From an uncultured Armatimonadota bacterium (GTDB lineage: Bacteria > Armatimonadota > Fimbriimonadia > Fimbriimonadales > Fimbriimonadaceae), in assembly GCA_903833215.1 (NCBI GenBank), contig CAILEM010000060.1, positions 124,001 through 188,000 on the forward strand: 64,000 nt of DNA. Reading direction: 5' to 3'. Positions 2,188 to 22,486 of the stretch are shown in pieces. The position numbers and the translations under genes are program-made. Position 1 is the stretch's first letter; each line of letters begins with the position of its first letter. The notes under the pieces were generated by a model that made no database searches, was not told where the DNA came from, and saw nothing but the letters and a program-made list of their open reading frames with translations.

Positions 2188-3306
2188 ATGACCTATCGAA
2201 AACAATCCCCAAGCTGGGGATCGCTGTTAGGCGTGGCAGCCGTCATCTTGGCGGCAGCACCTGCAACGATTTGCACAGCCCAGGGACCACCCGCTGGTGA
2301 AATGCTTGCCAATGGTGGCTTCAACCACGGCTTGACAAAGTGGAAGGTTGAAGAATCAGGAGCCAAAGGATTGGCAGAGGCGGTCAAAGAGGGCCCTTCC
2401 GGTCAATCGGCATTGCGAATAAAGGTGCTGAACGTCGGTAGCGATGCCTGGCGCCTCCAGGTTTACCAAGGTGGCCTTCGAATTGAGAAGGGCAAGAAGT
2501 ACACGCTTGAGTTTTGGGCAAAAGCCGCGGAAGCTGGCGTGATCACCGTGAATTGCATGCAGAACCATGCCCCTTGGGAGCATCACGGAGCCGCCACCGA
2601 AATGGCGCTCGGCACAACATGGAAGCTGATGCACTTCGCATTCGATGGGCCGTGGGATGACAAGGATTCGCGAATTACGTTCACCAATCTCGCAACCAAG
2701 GTGGGCCAGACCTATTGGTTCACCAACTGCTCGCTCAAGGCAGTTCCTGGCTCGAAACCGGCAGCGCCAAAACCAACCATCTCAAAGGGCCGACGCGTCG
2801 TTGTGTGGGATGGCGAGAAAGCGAACGTGGGAAGTGGTTGGGCAAACCCGAAGAGTTCCTCAATCCTGAGAGCAACCGGCGATTCCCACAGCGGAAATAC
2901 CGCCATGGAACTCAAATTCAAAACGTCCCATATCTGGGTTGGGGCCGGTTGGGACTGGTTCGCATGGAAAACGGGGACCGATATAGGAACGGATACCCGC
3001 GAGATGAAGACCCTTTCGTTTTGGATGAAGTCCAAAGGAAAGACAGGCGCTCTCGAAGTCCAGCTTCAGTGCAATGGCGATATCCTCGACACGCCGGAGC
3101 ACCACACTATCAAGGTTAAGGTGGGCAAGTACTGCCCGCAATTCTTGGACGGAAAATGGCATCAGGTCAGAATTCCACTCACCGAACTCACCCAACCCGT
3201 GGGATACGATCCGAGGATCGTAAGCCAAATCCAGTTCGGGTTTATGGCTGAAGGTGAAGTGGACGGCAGTTTTCTATTCGACGACATCTCGTTTGACGAT
3301 AAATAG
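2188..3306 (+). CDS. Secreted protein with two carbohydrate-binding-like domains
   Basis: The protein has 372 residues and starts with a signal peptide (hydrophobic core GVAAVILAAAPATICTA, cleavage probably after CTAQG). Residues about 40-180 look like a CBM4/9-type beta-sandwich (ANGGFNHGLTKWKVE near the start, FTNCSLKAV at the end). Residues about 205-372 form a second beta-sandwich of the same general kind, ending in the FLFDDISFDD segment common in carbohydrate-binding modules. No catalytic domain is visible, so the protein probably binds a polysaccharide at the cell surface. A strong AAAGGAG lies before the ATG. It follows the LacI-type gene and overlaps or nearly touches the SDR gene, as in one operon. 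The exact CBM family and ligand are uncertain. Confidence 0.75.
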   Translation: MTYRKQSPSWGSLLGVAAVILAAAPATICTAQGPPAGEMLANGGFNHGLTKWKVEESGAKGLAEAVKEGPSGQSALRIKVLNVGSDAWRLQVYQGGLRIEKGKKYTLEFWAKAAEAGVITVNCMQNHAPWEHHGAATEMALGTTWKLMHFAFDGPWDDKDSRITFTNLATKVGQTYWFTNCSLKAVPGSKPAAPKPTISKGRRVVVWDGEKANVGSGWANPKSSSILRATGDSHSGNTAMELKFKTSHIWVGAGWDWFAWKTGTDIGTDTREMKTLSFWMKSKGKTGALEVQLQCNGDILDTPEHHTIKVKVGKYCPQFLDGKWHQVRIPLTELTQPVGYDPRIVSQIQFGFMAEGEVDGSFLFDDISFDDK

Positions 3307-3326
3307 TGGTTTCGACCAAGGAAAAA

Positions 3327-4034
3327 ATGAACAAGGCAAATATCAAAGGAAAATGGGCGCTGGTTACCGGCGCAAGCAGAGGAATCGGACGACAGGTTAG
3401 CTTAGGGCTGGCCGACTATGGCTGCAACGTGGTACTCCACAGTCGCAACTTGGCTAACACATCGGCGCTTGCCGAAGAACTTCGGGCAAAGGGAGTTGAG
3501 GTTCGGCAAGTTCATGCAGAACTCTCGGACCCAGCCCAAGTCGAGGCAATGTTATCGAGCCTACTGAGCGAAGGTCCCGCGATCGATATTCTGTACAACA
3601 ATGCCGCGATCCAGATTGGATACCACCCTGACTGGGTGAAGACGCCGATGGATGACTTGCGAAAGAGCTTTGAAGTCAATGTCACCGCCCTTGTTCGGAT
3701 CTGTTTTGCCCTCATCCCTGGGATGGTTGAGCGCGGTTGGGGACGCATCGTCAACGTGACGTCTGGCGTGAAAGATCAGCCGGAGATGACGGGATATGCC
3801 GTCTCAAAGGCAGCGGTCGACAAGTTTGTGCTGGACACGGCCCCGCATCTAAAGGATAAGGGCGTGTTGATGAACCTGATGGATCCAGGCTGGCTTCGCA
3901 CCGACTTGGGCGGTCCGAACGCACCTGGCTCCGTTGAATCCGTAGTACCTGGAGCACTTGTACCTGTACTTATCGACGATGGAACGGTCGCGGTCTTGTT
4001 CCACGCTCAAGACTGGGCCGGTAAGGAAATCTAG
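3327..4034 (+). CDS. SDR-family oxidoreductase
   Basis: This is a classical short-chain dehydrogenase/reductase of 235 residues. The NAD(P)-binding motif TGASRGIG is near the N-terminus, the structural motif appears as NNAA, and the catalytic Ser and Tyr-x3-Lys are in NVTSGVKD and GYAVSKAAV. I chose the ATG at 3327 because it has an AAGGA just upstream. A GTG at 3306 in the same frame would overlap the stop of the previous gene and add seven residues outside the fold. The gene sits between the carbohydrate-binding protein and the ThuA-like gene, so the substrate is probably a sugar or sugar derivative; this is inference from context only. Confidence 0.85.
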   Translation: MNKANIKGKWALVTGASRGIGRQVSLGLADYGCNVVLHSRNLANTSALAEELRAKGVEVRQVHAELSDPAQVEAMLSSLLSEGPAIDILYNNAAIQIGYHPDWVKTPMDDLRKSFEVNVTALVRICFALIPGMVERGWGRIVNVTSGVKDQPEMTGYAVSKAAVDKFVLDTAPHLKDKGVLMNLMDPGWLRTDLGGPNAPGSVESVVPGALVPVLIDDGTVAVLFHAQDWAGKEI

Positions 4035-4046
4035 GAGAAACGTCGC

Positions 4047-4685
4047 ATGTCCTCAACCGAAGTGAAGCGTGTCCTTGTTCTTTGCGGAGATTGCTACCAT
4101 CCCGCCGAAATGGTGATAGAAGGTCTGCGAGCTTCGGTTGGTTCCGAGTTTGCGTTCGAAGTGGCACCGGACGGGACACTTGTTGAGCTTGGCGAGACCT
4201 ACGCCGCAGTTGTCATTGCCAAGCTCAACGTATCTTCTCCCACGGATCCACTTCCGTGGGCAGACGCACGCTCCGATGAACTCCTTCGAGAATTTGTGAT
4301 GACCGGTGGGGGATTGGTTGTCATCCACGGCGGGACTGTCGGCTACCAGGATGCGCCTTCGATTCGACAGCTTACGGGGGGTAAGTTTCTTCATCACCCT
4401 GAAGCTTGTGAAATCACTTTTCAACCTCTTGAAGGTTTTGATCTTGCCGCTGGAACAATCGCCTTTGCCGGACTTGATGAGCACTATTTCGTCGACATCG
4501 ACGGTGGTCAAGAGATCTTTCTCGTTTCTAGGTCTACGCACGGCGAGCAACCTGCGGGATGGACAAGCTCATTTGGAGACGGCCGTGTTTGTGTCCTGAC
4601 TCCTGGCCATGAGGGAGCCGTGTGGAAGCATCCAGAGTTCAAAAAGATCATCAACAAGGGGCTGAATTGGGTCACCCATGGATAG
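4047..4685 (+). CDS. ThuA-like protein (trehalose utilisation family)
   Basis: The protein has 212 residues and matches the ThuA-like fold, a class I glutamine-amidotransferase-like fold. It opens with VLVLCGDCYHPAEMVIEGL, has the GGGLVVIHGGT turn in the middle, and closes with a VCVLTPGHEGAVWKHPE segment and a final helix, all typical of the family. ThuA proteins act with ThuB dehydrogenases in metabolism of trehalose and related disaccharides, probably through keto-sugars. Here the partners would be the two flanking SDR enzymes. A good AGGAG precedes the ATG, and the stop overlaps the next gene by 8 bases, so the two are probably translated together. Confidence 0.82.
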   Translation: MSSTEVKRVLVLCGDCYHPAEMVIEGLRASVGSEFAFEVAPDGTLVELGETYAAVVIAKLNVSSPTDPLPWADARSDELLREFVMTGGGLVVIHGGTVGYQDAPSIRQLTGGKFLHHPEACEITFQPLEGFDLAAGTIAFAGLDEHYFVDIDGGQEIFLVSRSTHGEQPAGWTSSFGDGRVCVLTPGHEGAVWKHPEFKKIINKGLNWVTHG

Positions 4686-5391
4686 AATTGCCCTGGTGAC
4701 AGGTGCCGATCGCGGTCTTGGCCGGGCACTGGTCGGGAGTCTCCTGGCGTCGGGCTGGAAAGTCTTCGCGGGCAGGCATCTGGAGTGGCCCGAGCTCGAC
4801 GAGTTAGCATCACAGTTTGCGACCCAACTCCAAATCATCCCCTTGGACGTCGGTTCGGATAAGTCGGTATCAGACGCCGTTCAACTTGTGGAAGCCTCGA
4901 TATCCCAGATCGATCTTCTTATATGCAATGCCGGAATTCAGCGATCAGCCCACGTGAATTCGGTTCGGGAAGAGTTGAATTTTGACGATATGCTGGGTGA
5001 GTTCAACGTCAACGCCGTCGGTGCGTTGCGGGTCGTACATGCCTTCCTTCCTCTTCTAGATTCGAGCGACCTGAAGAGGCTGTGCTTTGTTTCTTCGGAA
5101 GCAGGAAGTATCGGAGCGAGTACTCGGACGGGTTGGTTCGGTTACTGCATGTCGAAGGCCGCCCTCAACATGGCCGTCAAAAACCTCAGTAACGATTTGG
5201 TGGATCAAGGCTATTCGTTCCGGCTGTACCATCCCGGTTGGATGCGCACCTATATGAGCGGCACCAAGAACACCGAGGCACCCTTAGAACCGGAACAAGC
5301 CGCCGAAGTGGCTCTCCAGCATTTTCTGGATGACAGCAAGTCGAAACCGTTAACCCTCCACGATTGGGAAGGAAACGACCTTCCTTGGTAG
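4678..5391 (+). CDS. SDR-family oxidoreductase (second of the locus)
   Basis: This 237-residue short-chain dehydrogenase has the cofactor motif TGADRGLG at the N-terminus, NAGIQ for the NNAG motif, and the catalytic Ser (CFVSSEAGS) with Tyr-x3-Lys (FGYCMSKAAL). It overlaps the end of the ThuA-like gene by 8 bases and ends the plus-strand operon. It differs clearly from the first SDR of the locus, so the pair may catalyse successive oxidation and reduction steps around the ThuA-like protein. The substrate cannot be read from sequence. The convergent glycosidase gene begins about 100 bases downstream, after a palindromic repeat. Confidence 0.85.
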   Translation: MDRIALVTGADRGLGRALVGSLLASGWKVFAGRHLEWPELDELASQFATQLQIIPLDVGSDKSVSDAVQLVEASISQIDLLICNAGIQRSAHVNSVREELNFDDMLGEFNVNAVGALRVVHAFLPLLDSSDLKRLCFVSSEAGSIGASTRTGWFGYCMSKAALNMAVKNLSNDLVDQGYSFRLYHPGWMRTYMSGTKNTEAPLEPEQAAEVALQHFLDDSKSKPLTLHDWEGNDLPW

Positions 5392-5488: not shown

Positions 5489-6487
5489 TTAATCTTTTGA
5501 GGTCACCAGGTGATTGAAGACGTAGACGCCTGGCGGAGTTAGGTCGGTGAGGGACGGCCTTCCCGTAACGTGTGTTCCCGGTTTCAACATCGACGTGGTC
5601 TCCGCCTTGTCGTTGAGTGAGAAGTTTGCCCAACTAATCTTGTACTTGTCGAGGAAGTTGAGCCAGACATCGCTCTCGGTCAGGTCCATGCCTCCGTTTC
5701 CAGAGGAGTCACAGGTTCCCCATTCGCTGGCAAACAGGGCCAGCCCGTTTCGCATCGCAGTTTCCGCTTTATCGCGAAGGAACTGTCGATGCGTCCCCGC
5801 GTAGAAGTGCAGGCAATAGGCCAGGTTCTTGAAGCCCTTGATCGGATCCAGCGAAGCAATATCGACATCCTGAGACCACCGTGGCGTGCCAACGATGATG
5901 AGGTTATCGCTCCCGGCTTTTCGAATCGCTCCAATGACCGTCTCCGAGTAAGCCTTGACCGCAGGCCACTGGGGACCATTCGGCTCGTTGTAGATTTCGA
6001 AGATCACGTTCGGGCTCTTACCGTACGTCTTCGCCATCTTTGTAAAGAACTCGGTTGCCTTGACAACGTGACTAGGTGCCTGCTCTTCATGCCAATCGAT
6101 GATCACGTAGATTCCCTTCGCAATCGCCGCGTCCACAACCGTTTTGACCTGATCGAGAGCCTTTGTTGGGTCTTCGAGATAGCCTCCTCGGCCTTCTTCA
6201 GCACCCATAGCGATGCGGACAACGGAGCAGCGCCAGTCCTCGGCAAGGGCATTGATGGTCTGCTTGTTGTAGTACGGCCCCGTCCATTGACTCCAAAACA
6301 GGCTGACTCCCTTGAGCTGGTAAGGCTTTCCGTGCGAATCACAAACATGAGTTCCGATCACTTGAAGCGCCCCGTGGAGTTTCACTGGGGAAGCGTAACG
6401 CCCAACTGGCTGCTTCAGCGGAACTGCCTGTTGGGGAGAATTTTTGGCGGAAGAAAGCATAAGGTGAATTCCGATGAGGGCAAGCAT
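5489..6487 (-). CDS. Glycoside hydrolase family 5 (cellulase-like) enzyme
   Basis: This exported 332-residue protein has a short N-terminal hydrophobic segment (LALIGIHLMLSS) and a GH5 TIM barrel. The acid/base glutamate is in FEIYNEPNG (about residue 168) and the nucleophile in LFASEWGT (about residue 255). Other GH5 landmarks are LKGVSLFWSQW, RIAMGAEEG and VIIDWHEE. The pattern fits the endoglucanase-like subfamily 2, but specificity (cellulose, mannan or another beta-glucan) is not certain. It is convergent with the LacI-led operon, and its promoter region carries an exact copy of the operator found before the regulator, so it is probably part of the same regulon. Confidence 0.88.
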   Translation of the reverse strand: MLALIGIHLMLSSAKNSPQQAVPLKQPVGRYASPVKLHGALQVIGTHVCDSHGKPYQLKGVSLFWSQWTGPYYNKQTINALAEDWRCSVVRIAMGAEEGRGGYLEDPTKALDQVKTVVDAAIAKGIYVIIDWHEEQAPSHVVKATEFFTKMAKTYGKSPNVIFEIYNEPNGPQWPAVKAYSETVIGAIRKAGSDNLIIVGTPRWSQDVDIASLDPIKGFKNLAYCLHFYAGTHRQFLRDKAETAMRNGLALFASEWGTCDSSGNGGMDLTESDVWLNFLDKYKISWANFSLNDKAETTSMLKPGTHVTGRPSLTDLTPPGVYVFNHLVTSKD

Positions 6488-6529
6488 TGTTGTTTCCGGT
6501 CAGTGCATGCAGACCTATTCAGCCGACTG

Positions 6530-6543
6530 TGCACACGATTGCA
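6530..6543. promoter_or_regulatory. LacI-type operator, copy 3 (GH5 promoter)
   Basis: TGCACACGATTGCA is identical to 1055-1068, and the bases just before it (CGACTG) are also nearly shared. The site is 43 bases upstream of the GH5 start codon on the minus strand. A 14-base exact match at two promoters 5.5 kb apart is good evidence for a common regulator. Confidence 0.62.
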
Positions 6544-6706
6544 TTGAATATTACCACCTGTGATTCAGCCCCTCATAGATGATTTTCACGCCGTATGGGA
6601 TGATCCACCGGGGAACATTGAGTTCTAGCCCAAATAACGCTCGCATTTTTGATTTTTGAACCTACACATACACCTGATTCGGAGAGCCTTTCGTATAATG
6701 CAACCC

Positions 6707-17493: not shown

Positions 17494-18084
17494 TTGATTA
17501 CTGACTATGATTGGGCAATCTCAGTTCTCGGCGTTCCACCCAACGCAACTCAGGCTGAAGTTAATGAGGCGTACCGAGACCTCGTTTCGGTCTGGCACCC
17601 AGATAAGCACATGGCTAACGACCGCCTCAGAACCAAAGCTGAGCAGAAGCTAAAAGAACTTAACCTTGCGCGTGAGATTCTCTACTTCCATTTTAATACT
17701 TCAAGGTCTCGCGCAGATGCCAACACTGTTGAGGAAGGCACGTCAGCAGCTGGTTCAGATGAGCCCCCTACCGGGAAAAGTACGCACGAGCCAAGTAACC
17801 AACCAGTCAGTTGGTGGCGTACCCGTAAATTCAAATTAGTATGTATCGCGGGGGTTATCTTGGTGGCAGTTTCAATTATTGCCGGAACGGCGATGGGAAT
17901 TTTGTTGGCAACACGACATCCGGACGCAAGCACGGGCGAATCAAAAACACCTGGCGCAATAAACCGAAGTCAAGAAGAAGACGTGACAAAACTGACCACT
18001 GAACAGCGGGAAAATCTAGCTGCGGAAGGCCGATTCGAAGAGCCGAAGAATGATGAGAAGCCTCCAGATACGACAGCGAACTAA
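17494..18084 (+). CDS. J-domain protein with one transmembrane segment
   Basis: Residues 3-70 form a DnaJ domain with the HPD motif in SVWHPDKHM (residues 35-37). After a polar linker there is one membrane segment at about residues 114-138 (VCIAGVILVAVSIIAGTAMGILL) and a charged, probably disordered tail. J domains stimulate Hsp70 (DnaK), so this protein would recruit DnaK to the membrane; it is not a general DnaJ because the zinc-finger and substrate domains are absent. The start is a TTG preceded by AAGGGGGCGG, a strong ribosome-binding site. It follows the helicase gene by 190 bases on the same strand and may belong with it, but that is only context. Confidence 0.78.
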   Translation: MITDYDWAISVLGVPPNATQAEVNEAYRDLVSVWHPDKHMANDRLRTKAEQKLKELNLAREILYFHFNTSRSRADANTVEEGTSAAGSDEPPTGKSTHEPSNQPVSWWRTRKFKLVCIAGVILVAVSIIAGTAMGILLATRHPDASTGESKTPGAINRSQEEDVTKLTTEQRENLAAEGRFEEPKNDEKPPDTTAN

Positions 18085-20714: not shown

Positions 20715-21710
20715 CTACATCTGCAACGAACTTCTGCCAGCTTTACTGCGCTTCCAGATAAACCGTGCTGCAAGAAGAATAAGTAAAACGGTCGAGACCA
20801 TAAATACAACTGCGTAAGTGGATTTCTGTTGGGCAGCAGAGCGAGAAAATAGCGGATCAAGCACGAGCTTGCCGTTATGAACAAGGTAGACGTTCGATGT
20901 TTCTGACTCGCTGACGCGAGTGCCTTCCTTCCAACTAGGCTGGAACAGTGAATCACTTGCCCCTGGTTTTAAATCCTGGACCTCAAACGTTTTCGTAACA
21001 CCTCGCGAGGATCGGGTAATCATCCTCGATGGCACGTGAACCTTGTCGAGGATTTCAAAATCCGCGATATCAATAGAAAGGGTCTCATTTGCGCCGTTGG
21101 ATTCCTCGGCATGAACGATCTGGTACTCACGGTTTGGATCTATCTGCAACGTCATATTTGCGTGCCCGTTTCCGAATTTAGCCTGAATATAGCTCGTAGC
21201 AGGATCAGAGGTCACCGAAAGGTCACGCGCCTGATTCAACATTTCGTCAACAGGCATATTTTCCAGGAAGTACCCAGCGACTATTGGGGTTTCGTGGTCG
21301 AATCGTGCGGTCCCGAATTTCCCCTGATGCTGGTTAGGCATGTCTAGAAAACTCTTGCCGTCCTTGAGGATTTGCTTTTCACTGATAACCGGAACACCCG
21401 GAGACACGGCACCCATGATGCTGTCCGAGGCGAAATACCTGGCACCGGATTTGTACGCCGAATCGAAGGTACGTTCACCATTCCTGTCCCCCCAGGACGC
21501 GCTGTTGGGGGGTAGGGTTGGCGGTGTGCCCTGAACGGATACTATTTCCTTAACACGAGCGGTCATAGCAGGGAAGGCAGCTCTGTGCTTGGCGATAGTT
21601 GCAATTAAATTACTGCCCGTTTGGGAGGCTGCGATTGACGCAAAACCCAAGCCCAAAGCAATTCCGCAAGAGCGTCCAGCCGCTCTCAGTCGTTTTGGAT
21701 CAGCAACCAT
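20715..21710 (-). CDS. Exported protein with C-terminal membrane anchor, unknown function
   Basis: I do not recognise a family. Counting from the ATG at 21710, the product has 331 residues with a signal peptide (CGIALGLGFASIAASQ), a long extracytoplasmic domain rich in beta-strand patterns, and a C-terminal membrane segment (YAVVFMVSTVLLILLAARFIW) followed by a basic tail (KRSKAGR). The N-terminal helix and strands (NLIATIAKHRAAFPAMTARVKEI) are faintly like LolA/RseB-type domains, but this is weak. It has no cysteine in the mature domain. The chosen ATG overlaps the stop of the cysteine-rich gene by 11 bases and gives a normal signal peptide; in-frame ATGs at 21746 and 21785 are alternatives. 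It is the third gene of a compact operon. Confidence 0.65.
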   Translation of the reverse strand: MVADPKRLRAAGRSCGIALGLGFASIAASQTGSNLIATIAKHRAAFPAMTARVKEIVSVQGTPPTLPPNSASWGDRNGERTFDSAYKSGARYFASDSIMGAVSPGVPVISEKQILKDGKSFLDMPNQHQGKFGTARFDHETPIVAGYFLENMPVDEMLNQARDLSVTSDPATSYIQAKFGNGHANMTLQIDPNREYQIVHAEESNGANETLSIDIADFEILDKVHVPSRMITRSSRGVTKTFEVQDLKPGASDSLFQPSWKEGTRVSESETSNVYLVHNGKLVLDPLFSRSAAQQKSTYAVVFMVSTVLLILLAARFIWKRSKAGRSSLQM

Positions 21711-22041
21711 ATTGCCACGAATCCGTTTCCGATTGAGGCGTCCCATTGCATGCACTACCCCAAAATCCGTAGTAATATTGCGCATGGCATAATATCCAGT
21801 TCATCGTGCAAGAGCTACCACTGTCTGCACCTGCAGCCGTAGCGCAGGTGCCATGGGGGAACCAGGCGTCATAACTATTTATCAACCAGTCGCACCCGTC
21901 CGGCGTGTTACATTGCGGGTTTATACAAACACTGTTTGCAGTGGTGTAAGAGGGATGGGAGGTCACTGTAGACGCGGTAGCAGAAAGAACTGAAATGCTA
22001 GCTAGGATGAGAGGGAGGACAAAGGTTCTATGTATTTTCAT
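21700..22041 (-). CDS. Small secreted eight-cysteine protein
   Basis: The 113-residue product has a clear signal peptide (RTFVLPLILASISVLSATA) and a mature chain of about 90 residues with eight cysteines: three close together (SVCINPQCNTPDGC), then GTC, SSC, ILC, SAC and a cysteine as the very last residue. It is also rich in Trp, Tyr and Gly. An even number of cysteines in a secreted chain suggests four disulfides. No family is recognised. The gene overlaps the MauE-like gene upstream by 14 bases and the anchored-protein gene downstream by 11, so the three are translated together. It may be the substrate that the MauE-like protein helps to oxidise or fold. A modified peptide precursor is a less likely alternative. 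Confidence 0.7.
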   Translation of the reverse strand: MKIHRTFVLPLILASISVLSATASTVTSHPSYTTANSVCINPQCNTPDGCDWLINSYDAWFPHGTCATAAGADSGSSCTMNWILCHAQYYYGFWGSACNGTPQSETDSWQYGC

Positions 22042-22486
22042 TTTTTTGAAACCAAAAATTACGAGTGGTAGCAACGGGTTCGAGGCCAGCGGCCACATGC
22101 GATGCTAAGCCGAGCAGCCCGAGAGACATGACGAGAGAAGCTGCCGGAGGCAATTTAAACAATGCGCCAAAACAGCTACATGGGACGCGAATCCCTTGCG
22201 TTATCCGCCAAATATTGTAAGCGCTGAAAATAGCAAAGAGGATGGTGGCGGCAATCAGCGCCAACCTCCTCGAAAACGAAAAGCCAAGACCAATCACAAC
22301 AGCGAGTTCAGAAGCAACGATAAATTTCGCACCGTACTCGGCCAGATTTCGCGGGACGACGTACGAAGCTATCAATGTGTCTCTTAACTGGCTCATCGCT
22401 TCTAACTTAGATAATGCGGACAGAGTTAGGATTAAGGCAATAATAACGAGTCCATATTGACGTCTATATCTCCGTGTTTTACCCAT
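22028..22486 (-). CDS. MauE/DoxX-like redox-associated membrane protein
   Basis: This 152-residue protein has four hydrophobic segments (YGLVIIALILTLSALSKL, FIVASELAVVIGLGF, LALIAATILFAIFSAYNIW, AASLVMSLGLLGLASHV) and the motif IRVPCSCFGAL in the loop after the third. This is the layout of MauE-like proteins. MauE is needed, with the thioredoxin-like MauD, to form the disulfides of methylamine dehydrogenase small subunit. No MauD, methylamine dehydrogenase or thioredoxin gene is nearby, so the job here must be different. The overlapping downstream gene encodes a secreted protein with eight cysteines, which is a natural client. It is the first gene of the operon. Confidence 0.8.
   Translation of the reverse strand: MGKTRRYRRQYGLVIIALILTLSALSKLEAMSQLRDTLIASYVVPRNLAEYGAKFIVASELAVVIGLGFSFSRRLALIAATILFAIFSAYNIWRITQGIRVPCSCFGALFKLPPAASLVMSLGLLGLASHVAAGLEPVATTRNFWFQKNENT

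Follow-up and report, generated by a model that had tools for sequence, protein, structure and literature searches.

Organisation of the locus

Three intact open reading frames lie on the minus strand at positions 20715-22486 of the window, the term used here for the whole 64,000-nucleotide stretch of DNA from an uncultured Armatimonadota bacterium that was analysed. The genes and their parts, with the basis for each assignment, are as follows.

22028..22486 (-): gene 1, MauE-family four-helix membrane protein, 152 aa (PF07291 match; hydropathy)
22166..22186 (-): VPCSCFG motif of gene 1, with CxC in the predicted TM3-TM4 loop (conservation in 13 relatives; topology estimate)
21700..22041 (-): gene 2, putative secreted eight-cysteine protein, 113 aa (start choice; homologues with the same cysteine spacing in at least three families)
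21970..22041 (-): estimated signal peptide of gene 2, residues 1-24 (hydrophobicity heuristic)
22028..22041 (-): overlap of genes 1 and 2, 14 bases
20715..21710 (-): gene 3, putative exported protein with a predicted LolA/LolB/RseB fold and a C-terminal membrane anchor, 331 aa (AlphaFold2 model, Foldseek, VIA)
21700..21710 (-): overlap of genes 2 and 3, 11 bases
20718..20819 (-): C-terminal hydrophobic helix and basic tail of gene 3, residues 298-331, TYAVVF...KRSKAGRSSLQM (sequence and model)

The starts used were 22486 for gene 1 and the ATG codons at 22041 and 21710 for genes 2 and 3, respectively; the listed frame of gene 2 begins at an upstream ATG (22098), but translation more likely starts at 22041. 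These positions give the overlaps of 14 and 11 bases reported in a preliminary description of the locus, and its readings of the three products are borne out as well: gene 1 carries VPCSCFG and belongs to the MauE family, the gene 2 product has by inspection a signal peptide followed by exactly eight cysteines, and that of gene 3 runs from a signal-like N-terminus through a body to a C-terminal helix and a KRSKAGR tail. The obligatory co-expression which that description had read from the overlaps is, however, too strong a term, since the spacing of the genes in relatives varies between -53 and +135 bases and not every locus is complete: L071 and L166 have gene 3 alone, and L069 has genes 2 and 3 without MauE.

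The genes flanking the window trio were not seen adjoining it in the relatives' loci examined, and scans of the locus for promoters and terminators returned no more signals than shuffled sequences. The window locus represents the minimal form of the arrangement, without the C39, prepilin, DUF2079, Wzy_C or GT2 genes that accompany some relatives. A phage or defence origin was considered and set aside, as no plausible PADLOC or PHROGs match was obtained (none in PADLOC and none of significance in PHROGs for genes 2 and 3).

Occurrence of the trio in the Armatimonadota

A total of 121 relatives were searched with each of the three proteins and the resulting loci were examined. The preliminary description had proposed a search of the phylum for the three-gene order, and had held that its reading would fail if the genes were never found together in related genomes or if the cysteine-rich frame were not conserved. 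The trio was identified, in the same order and on the same strand, in at least 18 genomes from at least three families of the Armatimonadota, often as several divergent copies per genome, and the eight-cysteine spacing persists among them, so that neither objection applies. The protein searches recovered it in G008 (three copies), G028, G025, G011, G038, G002, G036, G061, G037 (two copies) and G018, and in G054, which holds two complete or nearly complete trios and further pieces at contig ends; phylum-wide profile searches added G159, G163, G164, G166, G144 and G162 from other families. These profiles detected gene 3 in 34 and the cysteine framework in 15 of the 291 genomes of the phylum. Matching contigs are labelled Fimbriimonadaceae, Fimbriimonadales and Chthonomonas, which places the protein family in the Armatimonadota.

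The association is close. When the 121 genomes were searched with the window protein, the cysteine-rich gene was found directly after MauE at 17 of the 18 MauE places (the only exception being G038:C60), and at those 17 a gene 3 or gene-3-like frame follows wherever the contig continues. A model of the cysteine framework also matched two loci outside its building set, G162 (2.7e-8) and G248 (4.9e-4). The former holds, in a row, MauE, a cysteine-rich frame with an interrupted leader, gene 3, a C39 peptidase gene and two DUF2079 genes, and in the latter the contig ends beside the cysteine-rich gene. The recurrence of the order, together with the recovery of these unused loci, argues that the trio is more than a chance assemblage.

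Pairwise distances of the three proteins are correlated (Mantel r 0.59 for MauE against gene 3 and 0.58 for the cysteine-rich protein against gene 3, both p 1e-4; 0.35, p 0.002, for MauE against the cysteine-rich protein), correlations partly due to species relatedness, though several genomes hold more than one copy. Ka/Ks was uninformative for the G061/G037 pair, in which the three genes are identical. The genome of the window carries a second, divergent trio (G000:C14, L072:2-4059) that comprises a MauE with a C-terminal domain weakly matching the DsbA model and lacking an evident CxxC, an eight-cysteine protein (1203-1601), a gene-3-like frame and an O-antigen-ligase-like gene; the gene-3-like frame has the architecture of gene 3, with no detectable sequence match.

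The eight-cysteine protein

The mature part of the gene 2 product has eight cysteines in 17 of 26 members, with a variance of 0.77 against a mean of 8.2; the members with 7 to 10 are mostly those trimmed by the cleavage heuristic or carrying an extra pair. The spacing, C-x4-C-x5-C-x15-C-x(8-13)-C-x6-C-x10-C-x14-C, is nearly constant and is kept between families that otherwise share 20-30% identity. Cysteine-rich members found beside MauE-DsbA fusions have another spacing and again eight cysteines. That the cysteine count of an exported protein is even and constant suggests disulfides, and the eight mature cysteines of gene 2 would be expected to pair. No plausible Pfam or NCBIfam family, PF02975 included, was found for gene 2, and no related PDB sequences were found for genes 2 and 3; a structure model of the gene 2 product was discarded at pLDDT 40.

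The MauE-family protein and its redox substitutes

Gene 1 matches PF07291 (MauE) with an E-value of 2e-18 and 67.4 bits against a Pfam cut-off of 27. Its product has exactly two cysteines, C103 and C105, both within VPCSCFG, and P102, C103 and C105 are invariant in 13 relatives. Four hydrophobic segments are estimated from hydropathy, with the CxC between TM3 and TM4; the loop would be extracytoplasmic if the Lys/Arg-rich N-terminus is inside. By sequence the protein falls outside the DsbB/VKOR family (PF07884), its Pfam match being to MauE only, though it may resemble these oxidases in function.

A redox role of MauE is supported by three kinds of change observed among the relatives. Fusions of MauE to a DsbA-type domain occur at three loci (G036, G037 and G018), although two of the three fused domains lack CxxC and carry a single-cysteine site, CPYS and CPYT (L079:6170-7276 and L127:6768-8042, +). 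G011:C26 has no MauE; there a VKOR-thioredoxin fusion (PF07884, 2e-10) comes after the cysteine-rich gene and gene 3. In G018, a second pair of cysteine-rich gene and gene 3 is followed by a separate DsbA gene (PF01323).

Other observations weigh against an oxidase. The window MauE has the CxC alone and no adjoining thioredoxin domain, and the gene 2-gene 3 pair of L069 has no redox gene nearby. The MauE of G162 (L200:5712-6634, +) has PANGF in place of the CxC and lies beside the cysteine-rich frame whose leader is interrupted by a stop, a copy that is possibly decaying. The genome of the window also encodes two general VKOR-DsbA fusions elsewhere (L181:5337-6509 and L182:4911-6053, -), so that a dedicated oxidase need not be essential. 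One further gene, L068:8982-9905, appeared VKOR-like by eye and was not counted, as it had no Pfam match.

The trio is read here, with a probability of roughly 0.58, as a dedicated extracytoplasmic disulfide-maturation module for the secreted eight-cysteine protein, with gene 3 as its escort. The preliminary description had already suggested a disulfide-forming or maturation system with a client of its own; the fusions, the substitutions and the eight cysteines lend that suggestion comparative support, while its chemistry is still to be taken conditionally.

C39 peptidases and the possibility of a toxin

In G002, G019, G144, G172 and G162, gene 3 is followed by a gene for a C39 peptidase, and G061 has a gene with a weak likeness to C39. 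The N-termini of these peptidases resemble signal peptides or anchors, and the enzymes are therefore probably exported. A leader of the form L[ST]xxEMxxxxG[GA] precedes the first cysteine in all three loci that have both an intact client and a full C39 gene (L077, L121 and L169; genomes G002, G019 and G144) and in none of the 21 others (Fisher 5e-4). The window locus has neither the GG/GA leader nor the C39 gene.

Leaders of the GG type with C39 peptidases at some loci would also suit a bacteriocin-like pair, in which gene 2 encodes an antibacterial protein oxidised by MauE and the anchored gene 3 product an immunity protein that captures the toxin in the periplasm of the producer. The patchy, multi-copy and fast-diverging distribution (three copies in G008, several in G054 and G011) is in keeping with such a pair, and the tandem or lone gene-3-like copies of L173, L176, L071 and L166 would suit orphan immunity genes. 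The mature proteins are, however, mostly acidic (net charge -6 for that of the window), unlike most antimicrobial peptides; the size of the gene 3 product is on the high side for an immunity protein; and no ABC exporter was noticed among the annotated neighbourhoods, which were inspected by reading rather than systematically. A toxin with its immunity protein is thus considered an unlikely account of the locus.

Prepilin and glycosyltransferase-type genes

The relatives carry several other accompanying genes. Of 19 trio loci, 9 have a prepilin gene no more than 3 kb away, where about 6% would be expected (p 8e-7, with the per-locus expectation drawn from three genomes only); DUF2079, Wzy_C or GT2 genes occur at several loci. 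In L169, a glycosyltransferase family 2 domain and MauE are fused in one frame (3943-5232, +), upstream of a cysteine-rich gene with a clear GG leader, gene 3, an exported C39 peptidase, DUF2079 and a prepilin gene. L173 and L176 (G103 and G194) each contain four gene-3-like frames in a row, with a single cysteine-rich gene in L176; both have a prepilin gene, and a Wzy_C-like gene is present in L173 and, by inspection, in L176.

These genes raise the possibility that the eight-cysteine protein, matured by MauE, is a structural or tip part of a pilus-like or glycosylated surface structure whose true partners are the prepilins and the Wzy_C/DUF2079 proteins. The enrichment of prepilins, the GT2-MauE fusion and the precedent of a C39 peptidase, FapD, which is periplasmic in Pseudomonas amyloid secretion (PMC5557850), are consistent with such a role. 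Nevertheless, no prepilin or glycosyltransferase gene adjoins the trio at the window locus, in G008, G054, G025, G011 and G159 or at others, and we regard an appendage as a distinctly doubtful explanation.

In G163 (L167), a radical SAM gene (3133-4449, -) and a sigma-70-type gene (5976-6545, -) lie near the trio. They could hint at further peptide modification or regulation; the radical SAM gene, found at this one locus only, was not counted as part of the module.

The gene 3 product

The gene 3 product has a body of about 260 residues between the signal-like N-terminus and the C-terminal hydrophobic helix, and a similar helix with a basic tail is found in nearly all its relatives. No plausible Pfam or NCBIfam match was found for any of the 15 and 19 members. 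An AlphaFold2 model built from six sequences (pLDDT 70, pTM 0.62) contains the half-open beta barrel with helices that characterises the LolA/LolB/RseB fold. It matched DUF1329 (4z48) and LolA3 (9tp6) in Foldseek at 7e-8, and DUF1329, LolA and LolB in VIA with Z-scores of 13.5 (over 200 residues), 13.1, 12.8 and 12.6, at about 10% identity. A LolA/LolB/RseB-like fold is thus well supported for gene 3, as far as the model is concerned. The gene 3 of the branch with DsbA fusions is a remote relative (profile-profile E 6e-5, probability 65%, against less than 1% for four unrelated profiles).

A tail-anchored LolA-type domain, as modelled, fits the escort of a client at the membrane; an immunity protein could have such a domain as well, and so could a sensor. 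The sensor reading, in which gene 3 resembles RseB/MucB and responds to redox or envelope stress, with the cysteine-rich protein as ligand and MauE setting the redox state of that ligand, is highly improbable: RseB/MucB are among the fold matches (Z 7.8-7.9) and a sigma-70-type gene lies next to gene 3 in L167 and, as judged by inspection, also in L176, but LolA, LolB and DUF1329 match better, the cytoplasmic tail of gene 3 is short, and no sigma or anti-sigma gene occurs at the window or most other loci.

Proposed mechanism

In the disulfide-maturation module favoured here, the gene 2 protein would be exported by Sec, and the CxC of MauE would hand oxidising equivalents from the membrane, probably from quinone, to the thiols of the client, either directly or via a DsbA-type protein, to yield four disulfides. 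The gene 3 protein, anchored in the inner membrane and facing outwards, would hold or escort the client through folding and release; this role is suggested by the resemblance in fold, at about 10% identity. The exported C39 peptidase of some relatives would cut the pro-leader after GG/GA. The mature peptide, possibly secreted for competition or interaction, may be delivered or decorated by the proteins that the prepilin and glycosyltransferase-type genes encode. The gene order, its recurrence, the fusions and substitutions, the cysteine framework and the link between leader and C39 were observed and the gene 3 fold was predicted; the direction of the oxidation and the client relationship, like the escort role, the purpose of the product and the use of quinone by MauE, are proposed from them.

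A wider generalisation is offered more tentatively, at somewhat less than an even chance. The loci may represent an unnamed, phylum-wide class of secreted eight-cysteine (four-disulfide) Armatimonadota peptides, each with its own extracytoplasmic assembly line of interchangeable oxidases (MauE, MauE-DsbA or VKOR-thioredoxin) and a tail-anchored LolA-fold escort, with one branch using an exported C39 peptidase to remove a GG/GA pro-leader outside the cytoplasm.

Comparison with known systems

MauE and MauD act in the maturation of methylamine dehydrogenase, and the disulfide role of MauE is termed speculated in one report (PMC7794033). The mau cluster resembles the window trio in devoting a MauE-family protein to a secreted, many-cysteine client, its small subunit MauA; the partner proteins differ, and gene 2 of the window does not match PF02975. 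A part in methylamine dehydrogenase maturation was considered and provisionally set aside: the PF02975 (MauA) profile matched none of the 113 genomes of the order, a count to be read beside the control, which gave no match either.

The preliminary description knew of no described system with this set of genes. That view needs qualification, as the decRiPPter report describes three candidate RiPP families of Streptomyces in which mauE accompanies precursors with eight or more cysteines (PMC7794033), in genomes without the mau cluster; a mauE gene adjoining a predicted precursor of this kind is likewise what is found at the window. The Streptomyces families belong to another phylum, the part of the report at hand mentions no LolA-fold partner or C39 peptidase, and the likeness is one of description. 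The view stands for the LolA-like gene 3, the connection with C39 and the Armatimonadota family, none of which was found in Pfam, NCBIfam or the literature searched; nor was a publication on this gene set in Armatimonadota found within that literature.

TMcin clusters provide a dedicated DsbA (TmcD), a membrane escort (TmcE) and a leader protease for a disulfide-bonded secreted peptide (PMC12328743, PMC13252029), and are thus alike in devoting oxidation and escort proteins to one such peptide. They differ in having one disulfide, DsbA instead of MauE, S2P instead of C39, ABC export and Gram-positive hosts, and share no families with the trio. FapD is similarly a stand-alone exported C39 peptidase sharing an operon with a probable secreted client, although its client is an amyloid and not cysteine-rich, and the window locus has no C39 gene. 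DsbB and VKOR are, like MauE, four-helix membrane proteins with redox cysteines, and a VKOR-thioredoxin protein takes the place of MauE at one locus; MauE is nevertheless a separate family with CxC, and its use of quinone is put forward here as a proposal. Gene 3, for its part, differs from the LolA/LolB/RseB superfamily, whose fold it is predicted to share, in its low identity, its C-terminal anchoring helix and its lack of a Pfam match.

MauE proteins are widespread, and their chemistry has been unsettled since the work on methylamine dehydrogenase. Here MauE stands beside one small client, is interchanged with VKOR/DsbA modules and can be expressed away from a mau cluster, and such a single-client setting makes the question of whether it acts as a disulfide oxidase directly testable with one substrate. 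If the assembly-line reading is true, the loci would also be a natural system for establishing whether MauE is a genuine disulfide oxidase. The eight-cysteine framework and the tail-anchored LolA-fold partner are two families new to Pfam and NCBIfam, and a C39 cleavage site is predicted outside the cytoplasm. What is new is the presence of two unnamed families in a widespread, modular arrangement, for which the decRiPPter mauE families and the dedicated DsbA of TMcin are the precedents.

Elsewhere in the window, at 17494-18084 (+), lies a frame judged by eye to encode a protein that combines a J-domain (HPD) with one transmembrane helix.
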